A stretch of 64,000 nucleotides of DNA, taken from NCBI GenBank assembly GCA_035543335.1, contig DASZZH010000028.1, positions 142,392 to 206,391 of the forward strand, written 5' to 3'. The notes beneath the pieces are model-generated. The model ran no database searches. It saw only the letters and a list, made by a program, of their open reading frames with translations, and was not told where the DNA came from. This document shows positions 3,211 through 22,170 of the stretch, one piece after another; within the stretch, counting starts at the first letter, position 1; the number at the start of each line of letters is the position of its first letter. Position numbers and translations under genes: made by a program. Origin of the DNA: Burkholderiales bacterium (GTDB lineage Bacteria > Pseudomonadota > Gammaproteobacteria > Burkholderiales > JAHFRG01).

Positions 3211-3834
3211 CTGTTCGAAGCGGTACACAGCCAGGCTGCCCAGCAGATTGGGAAATAGCGTGACGATACTGTCATTGGTCATCACCACCCGTTCGAGTAT
3301 GCGCACGCCATGCTTCGCGCAGAATGCCTCGAAATCGTCGATGGTGCACAGATGCACATTGGGCGTGTCGTACCACTGGTAGGGGAGATTTTTTGACACC
3401 GGCATGCGGCCGCGGGACACTTGCCAGCGCGCGCGCCAGTAGCCGAAGTTGGGGAAGGTGACGATGCCTTCGCGCCCCACGCGCAGAATTTCCTTGACGA
3501 TGCTCTCGGTGTGGCGCATCGCCTGCAGCGTCTGCGACAGAATTACATAATCAAACGAGTTTGACTCGAAGCCGGAAAGCCCGGTTTCAAGGTCATTCTG
3601 AATCACGTTCACGCCATTCCTGACGCAGGCGAGAATGTTGGCGTCGTCAATTTCCACGCCGTAGCCGCGCACCGAGCGCGATTGTTTGAGATAGCGAAGC
3701 AACACGCCGTCGCCGCAGCCGAGGTCCAGCACTTTCGAGCCGGGCCTGATCCAGGCGGCGATAGCGGCAAGGTCCGCCCGCTCCTTCAGCGCCGGATCGT
3801 GCAGGAGGGTCTCGCTGAGTTCAAGCGCGCTCAT
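3202..3834 (-). CDS. metW: Methionine biosynthesis protein MetW (SAM-dependent methyltransferase fold)
   Basis: MetW is the partner of MetX in many proteobacteria and is needed for full homoserine acyltransferase function. The 210-residue product has the class I methyltransferase motif [13 protein letters not shown] near residue 37, and [11 protein letters not shown] further on. A longer frame exists, but [29 protein letters not shown] at 3834 matches the family start, and it overlaps the metX stop in an ATGA arrangement, indicating translational coupling. It is therefore governed by the same promoter and riboswitch as metX. Confidence 0.93.
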
Positions 3835-5009
3835 AGCTTGATGTTCTCGAAGTAGGCGCGCAGCAGCGCGTGGTAGTGCGGATCGTCCAGCAGGAACGCA
3901 TCGTGTCCGTGCTGCGCGTTGATTTCGGCATAACATACATCGAGGTTATTGTCGAGCAGCGTTTTCACAATTTCCCGCGAGCGCGTGGGGGCAAAGCGCC
4001 AGTCCGAAGTGAACGAAGCGACAAAAAATCCCGCCCTGGCGCGGGCGAGCGCCGCGGTGAGATCGCCGTGGTAATCGTGCGCCGGGTCGAAGTAATCGAG
4101 CGCCTTGGTCATCAGCAAATAAGTGTTGGCGTCGAAGCGCGAGGCGAACTTGTCGCCCTGATAACGCAGATACGATTCAATTTCAAATTCGACATCGAAA
4201 TGGAAATTGTATGTTCCGGAACTGAGCGCCCGGCCGAATTTTTCCATCATTACGTCGTCGGAAAGATAAGTGATGTGGCCGAGCATGCGCGCCACGCGCA
4301 GCCCGCTTTTGGGTATGACGCCATGAGCGTAATAGTTTCCGCCGTGAAAATCCGGGTCGGACATGATGGCCTGGCGCGCGACTTCGCTGAAGGCGATGTT
4401 CTGCGCCGAGAGCTTGGATGCGGCGGCAATCACCAGCGCATGACGCATGCGGTCGGGGAGGGAAAGCGTCCATTGCAGCGCCTGCATGGCGCCGAGGCTG
4501 CCGCCAATGGACGCGGCAAAGCAGTCGATACCGAGGTGGTCGGCGAGCCGCGCCTGCGCCGTCACCCAATCCTCCACCGTCACCACCGGGAAATCCGCGC
4601 CGTAGGGCCTGCCGGTTTTGGGGTTGATGCTGGAAGGGCCGGTGGAGCCGTGGCAGCCGCCGAGGTTGTTTACGCCGATGACGAAAAACCTGCCGGTATC
4701 GAGCGGTTTGCCCGGGCCGATAAGATTGTCCCACCAGCCGATGTTCTTCGGGTCATCGGCGTAGTAACCCGCGACGTGGTGCGTGCCGGAAAGCGCGTGG
4801 CACACCAGCACTGCGTTGGATTTCGCCACATTCAGCTTACCGTAAGTTTCATAAACAAGGTCATAGCTGTCCAGCACCGCACCGCACTTGAATGCGAGCG
4901 GCGTGTCGAAGTGCGCCTTCTGCGGCGTCACGATGCCGACGGAATTTTCGGCGGGAGGACGATCCGCCGTGGCGGGATCAAAAAGCCGGTTGGAAATGCC
5001 CGGATCCAT
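3831..5009 (-). CDS. metX: Homoserine O-acyltransferase
   Basis: MetX acylates homoserine to open the methionine branch; acetyl versus succinyl specificity cannot be read safely here. The 392-residue alpha/beta hydrolase shows the nucleophile elbow [11 protein letters not shown], the oxyanion-region sequence [11 protein letters not shown] and a C-terminal catalytic His in [13 protein letters not shown]. The frame can open at a TTG (5012), but ATG 5009 has GAGG six bases upstream (5016-5019) and is preferred. The ribosome-binding site lies immediately downstream of the riboswitch terminator, so both sit in a very short leader. It is co-transcribed with metW. Confidence 0.95.
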
Positions 5010-5022
5010 CAATTACCTCGGC

Positions 5023-5062
5023 GATAAAAATAAAAAACCCGCAATCGGTCGGATGCGGGTTT
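5023..5062 (-). terminator. Riboswitch-controlled intrinsic terminator before metX
   Basis: On the minus strand AAACCCGCA (5054-5062) pairs perfectly with TGCGGGTTT (5035-5043) across a 10-base loop, followed by a U-rich tract at 5023-5034. The U tract ends 13 bases before the metX start. An alternative partner for its 5' arm, TGCGGG at 5088-5093, lies inside the SAM-II aptamer, so an antiterminator can form when the aptamer is not folded. Confidence 0.88.
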
Positions 5063-5114
5063 GTCTTTTAGCTGTATTTATTAAGCGCCCGCAAGCCGGC
5101 ACAAATCGGCGCTT
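5060..5114 (-). promoter_or_regulatory. SAM-II (SAM_alpha-type) riboswitch aptamer, metX leader
   Basis: The minus strand holds P1 arms AAGCGCC (5108-5114) and GGCGCTT (5083-5089), 7 bp and perfect. The loop begins GATTTGT and the 3' segment AATAAATACAGCTAAAA lies at 5066-5082. This follows the known SAM-II consensus (GAUUUA-type loop, then AUAAAU-GUAGCUAAAA). Pseudoknot pairing is seen between loop TTTGT (5101-5105) and ACAAA (5060-5064). The family binds S-adenosylmethionine and represses methionine genes, consistent with its position before metX-metW. I recognise the motif by eye; no covariance model was run. Confidence 0.88.
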
Positions 5115-5120
5115 GATTGC

Positions 5121-5149
5121 AGATTACTTTGGAGGTCGGCGTTTGTCAA
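5121..5149 (-). promoter_or_regulatory. Sigma-70-type promoter for metX-metW
   Basis: A perfect -35 TTGACA (5144-5149) is separated by exactly 17 bases from TAATCT (5121-5126). The predicted +1, about seven bases beyond the -10, falls at the first base of the riboswitch P1 stem near 5114. The same geometry is seen before metH. Confidence 0.8.
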
Positions 5150-18316: not shown

Positions 18317-18345
18317 TTGACAAGCCCGGGTCTAGCAGGTAATTT
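18317..18345 (+). promoter_or_regulatory. Sigma-70-type promoter for metH
   Basis: TTGACA (18317-18322), a 17-base spacer and TAATTT (18340-18345) make a strong promoter. The predicted +1 is about 18353, just before the first stem of the riboswitch. The -35 starts four bases after the stop codon of the VIT gene. Confidence 0.8.
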
Positions 18346-18355
18346 GTCGCCCGAA

Positions 18356-18435
18356 CTGCGCCGATTTGATTTCAGCTTGCGGGCGCGGGAACCTGGCACA
18401 GGTTCCAACAAATACTGCTAAAGCGAGACTGGAAC
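18356..18435 (+). promoter_or_regulatory. SAM-II (SAM_alpha-type) riboswitch aptamer with an inserted hairpin, metH leader
   Basis: P1 is CTGCGCC (18356-18362) with GGCGCGG (18382-18388), seven pairs including one G-U. The loop starts GATTTGATTTCAG, and the conserved 3' segment AAATACTGCTAAA lies at 18410-18422. The pseudoknot is loop TTTCAG with CTGGAA (18429-18434), with one G-U. Unlike the metX copy it carries an extra hairpin between P1 and the conserved segment: GGAACCTG (18388-18395) with CAGGTTCC (18399-18406). Ligand assignment follows the family and the gene controlled. Confidence 0.82.
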
Positions 18436-18470
18436 CCGTCCGCGTTAAGCAGAACGGGTTTTTTATTTTT
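18433..18470 (+). terminator. Riboswitch-controlled intrinsic terminator before metH
   Basis: AACCCGT (18433-18439) pairs with ACGGGTT (18454-18460) across 14 bases and is followed by a T-rich tract to 18470. Its 5' arm overlaps the aptamer's pseudoknot strand. GGTTCCA (18401-18407, the 3' arm of the inserted hairpin) is perfectly complementary to TGGAACC (18430-18436), giving a possible antiterminator. Confidence 0.82.
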
Positions 18471-18489
18471 ATCAAGGCGAATTTGAAGC

Positions 18490-22170
<3,681 letters not shown>

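Follow-up and report, generated by a model that had tools for sequence, protein, structure and literature searches.

SAM-II riboswitches have been described as among the simplest riboswitches, consisting of one stem and one pseudoknot. A variant with extra nucleotides, SAM-II long loops (RF01726), has been reported from Bacteroidetes and marine samples (PMC2864571). In S. meliloti, the SAM-II leader of metZ is predicted to end transcription with SAM, and at high SAM the leader sRNA rises and the read-through mRNA falls; the sections of that report describing this alphaproteobacterial leader do not mention an inserted hairpin (PMC9373788). From the beta-proteobacteria, Leyn et al. (2014) reported the metXZ element, with six conserved blocks, a pseudoknot, a terminator and a proposed antiterminator; in the passages that present it, the element is treated as new and is not linked to SAM_alpha, which is reported there from Rhizobiales and Rhodobacterales only (PMC4239095). 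Furthermore, Khoo et al. (2012) suspected that the Burkholderia sRNA Bp2_287, now Rfam family RF02424, is a cis element of methionine metabolism (PMC3521395).

The leader analyzed here lies in a 64,000-nt stretch of a Burkholderiales genome (hereafter, the window), upstream of metH, which encodes a cobalamin-dependent methionine synthase of 1226 aa (18490-22170, forward strand; TIGR02082, 1776.5 bits; NF007024, 2183 bits). It shares with the SAM-II (SAM_alpha) family RF00521 the P1 stem, the GATTTG loop, AGCTTGC, the A-rich L3 linker, the GCTAAAG 3' segment, the P2 pseudoknot, a downstream met gene and a terminator, and it differs from RF00521 by a 19-nt hairpin between P1 and L3, resembling RF01726 in being a SAM-II variant with extra nucleotides. 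All of its parts are on the forward strand. The promoter (18317-18345) is composed of a -35 TTGACA (18317-18322), a 17-nt spacer and a -10 TAATTT (18340-18345), placing the predicted transcript start near 18353, and the intrinsic terminator (18433-18465) pairs AACCCGT (18433-18439) with ACGGGTT (18454-18460) ahead of a U-tract, so that both the TTGACA-17-TAAT promoter and the terminator described in an earlier note on this DNA are present. A TTGACN-(16-18)-TA promoter pattern is found upstream of 80 of the 133 leaders that we collected, against 0.3 expected from shuffled upstream sequence.

Between these two elements, the SAM-II core reads GCGCC-GATTTG...AGCTTGC-GGGCGC...AAATAC-T-GCTAAAGC. P1 and its loop, with the characteristic GATTT(G/A) and GC(T/A)TGC, span 18358-18386: the P1 5' strand GCGCC (18358-18362) is followed by the conserved GATTTG (18363-18368), the P2 5' strand TTTC (18370-18373), the conserved AGCTTGC (18374-18380) and the P1 3' strand GGCGC (18382-18386), these assignments deriving from the sequence and from alignment to the covariance model R1 described below. 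One nucleotide past P1 begins the inserted hairpin (18388-18406), in which GGAACCTG (18388-18395) and CAGGTTCC (18399-18406) close a GCA loop (18396-18398), bearing out the earlier claim of a perfect 8-bp hairpin between P1 and the conserved 3' segment. The A-rich linker leading to GCTAAA (18407-18422 together) starts with the tail AACAAATACT (18407-18416), the retained portion of the SAM-II L3, and the conserved 3' segment GCTAAAGC followed by the P2 3' strand GAGA occupies 18417-18428. P2 thus joins the loop to the sequence 3' of GCTAAA, with TTTC pairing to GAGA (18425-18428) in 4 of 4 positions at the family register. Across the 133 leaders, pairing between a leader's own P2 strands (2.75) exceeds that of permuted strands (2.53 +/- 0.05), and none of 500 permutations reaches the own value.

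A scan with Rfam at default gathering cutoffs reported nothing in the 64-kb window. At relaxed cutoffs, RF00521 scored 13.6 bits on the metH leader by matching P1 alone, below its gathering cutoff of 36 bits, because the insert defeats the detection threshold, which is not a biological criterion; as Rfam stands, the leader is not an RF00521 member. Weak matches to Leu_leader, Trp_leader and other Rfam families in the leader were far under cutoff and were discarded, as was membership of RF01726, whose 44-bit cutoff the leader does not reach; RF01726 gave no match over that cutoff in the window genome or nine relatives, and none at E up to 1 in 40 insert-bearing loci. We built a covariance model (R1) from eight insert-bearing leaders of other species, leaving out the window copy and using a smaller alignment (A2), the first MAFFT alignment (A1) having mixed two hairpin registers. 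R1 scores 75.2 bits on the metH leader (E = 7.6e-20, searched in the window) and recovers all 45 test loci at E < 1e-6. The leader also carries the features of the insert-bearing subgroup, namely a covarying hairpin that starts 0-2 nt past P1 and precedes a AANAAATNCN tail. This match to a model that excludes it bears out the identification of the metH leader as a SAM-II riboswitch into which a hairpin has been inserted, and, judging from its sequence, we consider it probable (roughly 0.8) that the leader functions as a SAM-II OFF switch of transcription and that the hairpin at the base of P1 is an accessory to it.

The inserted hairpin is a genuine, recurrent extra helix. The inserts of 47 leaders fold with a mean MFE of -10.6 kcal/mol, compared to -5.9 +/- 0.3 kcal/mol for dinucleotide shuffles; the window insert reaches z = -4.4 in this comparison, and 19 of the 47 fold weakly, with z above -2. 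Each of the six modelled insert pairs varies on both sides in an alignment of 45 leaders, where it takes 4 to 6 pair types, and 86% of the alignment cells at these pairs are paired. Over the structure as a whole, 93% of cells pair, with a covariation score of 0.359; sliding the partners gives at most 55% and at most 0.127. Since the 45-leader alignment was fitted to the structure model, the shuffle folding result constitutes an independent check. The placement of the helix is likewise consistent: the insert starts 0-2 nt past P1 in 42 of 47 leaders, and the tail AANAAATNCN, whose commonest length is 10 nt plus an offset of 0-1 nt, is found in most insert-bearing and canonical leaders, the latter having a 12-nt L3 linker with an A-rich sequence that matches the tail of the insert-bearing ones. 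An insert starting near P1 and a retained 10-nt tail therefore indicate that a helix was added without lengthening the linker that crosses P1.

To assess occurrence, we searched 399 Burkholderiales genomes for exact matches to the core (GATTTG/GCTTGC/GCTAAA) with an over-long linker. Matches were present in 70 of the 399 genomes, compared to just a handful for a reversed-pattern control, and chance matches were removed by demanding P1 and a downstream met gene. This yielded 46 insert-bearing SAM-II leaders in 39 of the 399 genomes and 12 families, preceding metX (20), metZ (14) and metH (12); 190 of the 399 carry the exact core at normal spacing. RF00521 run on 40 insert-bearing loci produced a single match at E up to 1 (21.7 bits, under the 36-bit cutoff), and the insert accounts for the many beta-proteobacterial SAM-II leaders that go undetected in database scans. 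In 398 phylum-wide genomes, a search that required the exact core, and hence did not cover divergent alphaproteobacterial cores, returned only chance-like matches beyond the Burkholderiales. Among the closest named metH relatives, few have a SAM-II riboswitch at this core, and those are canonical in spacing. In a sister species (G036), the metH leader is a plain SAM-II with an identical core, a 12-nt linker and no insert (RF00521, 32.2 bits). The earlier note had proposed comparing SAM_alpha members for inserts at this site and had named absence from homologous leaders as one part of what would speak against its proposal: the hairpin is indeed absent from the sister metH leader, but many leaders in other families carry inserts in this position. 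The occurrence of the insert in the window species, its absence from the sister and the coexistence of both states within families point to repeated gain or loss.

These many gains or losses, the absence from the sister species and the wide variation in insert length and sequence would also be expected if the insert were a neutral or selfish small palindrome, such as the scar of a mobile element, with no role. We regard this explanation as unlikely, given that compensatory change keeps the pairing in every modelled pair, that the insert site is always the P1 base and that the A-rich tail is mostly kept, from which it follows that selection acts at least on being folded. Furthermore, a search for the window insert sequence elsewhere in the genome found no repeat; being unique in the genome, the insert was rejected as a repeated mobile palindrome, and this lack of repetition also argues against the neutral reading. 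The accessory helix of a SAM-II riboswitch remains our preferred interpretation; a covarying third helix at a fixed site in 12 families marks where the SAM-II fold accepts an extra domain, and the insert-bearing leaders provide a natural series for testing the effects of linker length and P1 stacking on SAM affinity and switching.

The earlier note had further proposed that the insert may itself be the switching arm, its 3' arm leaving its own hairpin to pair with TGGAACC and thereby block the terminator. The perfect 7-nt complement between GGTTCCA and TGGAACC (18430-18436) on which this was based does exist, and TGGAACC shares 4 nt with the 5' arm of the terminator; the claimed overlap with the pseudoknot strand was not upheld, with TGGAACC lying 1 nt beyond the best such strand, GAGA at 18425-18428. 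The sister metH leader, which has no insert, also has no TGGA at the spot matching the window TGGAACC, and the pair could thus have arisen together. The complementarity is real but constitutes weak evidence, because a perfect complement at least 7 nt long also occurs in 7.5% of insert/leader pairs mismatched at random. Across 47 leaders, the longest perfect complement between insert and expression platform averages 4.94 nt for own pairs versus 4.91 +/- 0.13 nt for permuted ones (p = 0.43). A slight excess of insert 3' halves over shuffled downstream sequence (z = 2.7) is regarded as weak. Imposing the GGTTCCA:TGGAACC helix on the window leader carries a penalty of about 6 kcal/mol, and the ensemble probability of this helix is about 1e-4, compared to 0.97 for the insert hairpin, which as a local structure is complete before TGGAACC is transcribed. 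In addition, in silico deletion of the hairpin leaves the balance between terminator (OFF) and antiterminator (ON) nearly unchanged. The insert is therefore probably not the switch, the family comparison and the energetic cost both failing to support the claim, and we deem this mechanism very unlikely. Taken together, the observation in the earlier note was largely right, its SAM-II identification being correct and its switching-arm claim unsupported.

What switches is more plausibly the conserved pseudoknot region. Complementarity of the P2 5' strand (NNCAGCTTGC) to the terminator sequence amounts to 5.22 nt versus 3.91 nt expected from shuffles (z = 18.6), and that of the 3' segment (NCNGCTAAAGCG) to 4.88 versus 4.11 (z = 11.7), as expected for a mutually exclusive terminator and antiterminator. 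Most of the complementary matches fall in the stretch separating the two terminator arms or at the base of the second, 3' arm, as for GCAAGCTGA opposite TCAGCTTGC. The P1 strands and the GATTTG loop presented no enriched complementarity to the terminator sequence, and the P1 3' strand, which the metX leader had suggested as a family-wide antiterminator, was rejected (z = -2.5). MFE folds of the window leader and of the sister-species leader both predict an antiterminator composed of CTGCT (18415-18419) with AGCAG (18448-18452), GCG (18423-18425) with CGC (18441-18443) and GAC (18427-18429) with GTC (18438-18440). In most relatives the antiterminator takes the form CAGCUUGC:GCAAGCUG or GCUAAA:UUUAGC, to which the window form is not identical. 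With the hairpin intact in both, the terminator and antiterminator states of the window leader are within 0.2 kcal/mol, and after in silico hairpin deletion within 0.5 kcal/mol, in nearest-neighbour energies that leave out pseudoknots and ligand.

These features suggest a classic OFF switch. With SAM bound, P2 would form through GCUAAAGC-GAGA and withhold the 3' segment, allowing the terminator to form and turning metH off. Without SAM, the 3' segment (CUGCU...GCG.GAC) would form an antiterminator by pairing with the terminator loop (AGCAG, CGC, GUC), and metH would be on. The inserted hairpin is predicted to stay folded in both SAM states, and its geometry suggests that it is most likely a structural add-on at the P1 base, where it would stack under P1 and close off the extra nucleotides, so that the P1 groove would be crossed by about 11 unpaired linker nucleotides, near the usual 12. 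The response of the S. meliloti metZ leader to SAM, as presented in the relevant part of that report, provides related experimental support for the OFF-switch reading from the leader of another organism (PMC9373788).

The fixed site and the structure kept in 12 families might also be taken to mean that the insert is a second input, to which a protein or another ligand binds and thereby tunes the SAM-II switch. Specific binding should have left a conserved sequence, but none was seen in the loops or stems of the 45 aligned inserts, making such a role very improbable. That the third helix of this large beta-proteobacterial SAM-II subgroup actively tunes the pseudoknot in any way, be it through affinity, folding rate or a second input, appears doubtful; if it did, the subgroup would represent a functionally distinct and larger SAM-II architecture instead of a passively decorated one.

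The window also contains a canonical SAM-II riboswitch with no insert (5048-5122, reverse strand; RF00521, 33.6 bits, below the 36-bit cutoff; R1, 40.0 bits) before metX, encoding a homoserine O-acyltransferase (3831-5012, reverse strand; NF047916, 671 bits) whose best NCBIfam match is the succinyl type. A third SAM-II leader precedes metZ on another contig (C25, 38.1 bits), and a fourth R1 match in the genome (contig C11, 24.3 bits) was dropped because it falls inside coding sequence. The two leaders recognized earlier in this path, those of metX and metH, are hence confirmed, but the genome has three, and the design said to be shared by the metX and metH leaders is common to that of metZ. 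The presence of SAM-II leaders on metX, metZ and metH makes it plausible that the path from homoserine to methionine is under common SAM control, supporting the suggestion that these leaders coordinate its steps. The metX leader being just under the Rfam cutoff (33.6 vs 36), standard annotation would give one third of the SAM-II leaders of this genome.

The metXZ element, in the passages that describe it, resembles the insert-bearing leaders in its genes (metX and metZ), its occurrence in beta-proteobacteria and the layout given in the text, and, unlike the leaders studied here, its description does not include those of metH (PMC4239095). Because genes, taxa and layout agree, it is probably the same riboswitch. 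The RF02424 model, for its part, corresponds to the reverse complement of an insert-bearing SAM-II metZ leader plus terminator. RF02424 matches repeatedly overlap insert-bearing leaders on the opposite strand, one of them at 107.5 bits (above the 70-bit cutoff), and on the minus strand of the window metH leader the model scores 17.8 bits, below that gathering cutoff. This indicates that the strand represented by RF02424 is the wrong one with respect to the methionine mRNA. The finding probably unites RF00521, the metXZ element and RF02424, which are three separate records. We found no mention of an inserted SAM-II helix in the literature searched, a search that most subscription papers lay outside. 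Antisense overlaps with RF02424 were noted at L078 (265-467, minus strand) and also at L085, L095, L100, L101, L109, L115, L121, L124 and other loci.

Several of the collected loci presented further SAM-II-like arrangements. Two of them carry tandem SAM-II-like aptamers approximately 135-155 nt apart (L091 at 147 and 301, L092 at 166 and 301), in which the first copy has a terminator and the GCTAAA of the second is immediately followed by a Shine-Dalgarno-like GAGGAG or AGGAG and a start codon. Similar second copies are seen in L090 and L131, where the downstream frames either are short or show no relation to metX, metZ and metH. In a single genus (g41), loci L125-L130 contain, near position 300, a SAM-II-like core with a lengthened P1 (about 8 bp) and an evident P2, TCTCC:GGAGA; this core is not located before metX, metH or metZ within the sequence fetched. 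Lastly, a locus from a gammaproteobacterial MAG (L227) has two R1 matches 100 nt apart (3371-3421 and 3476-3539; 59.4 and 25.5 bits), the second of which may be a degenerate tandem copy.
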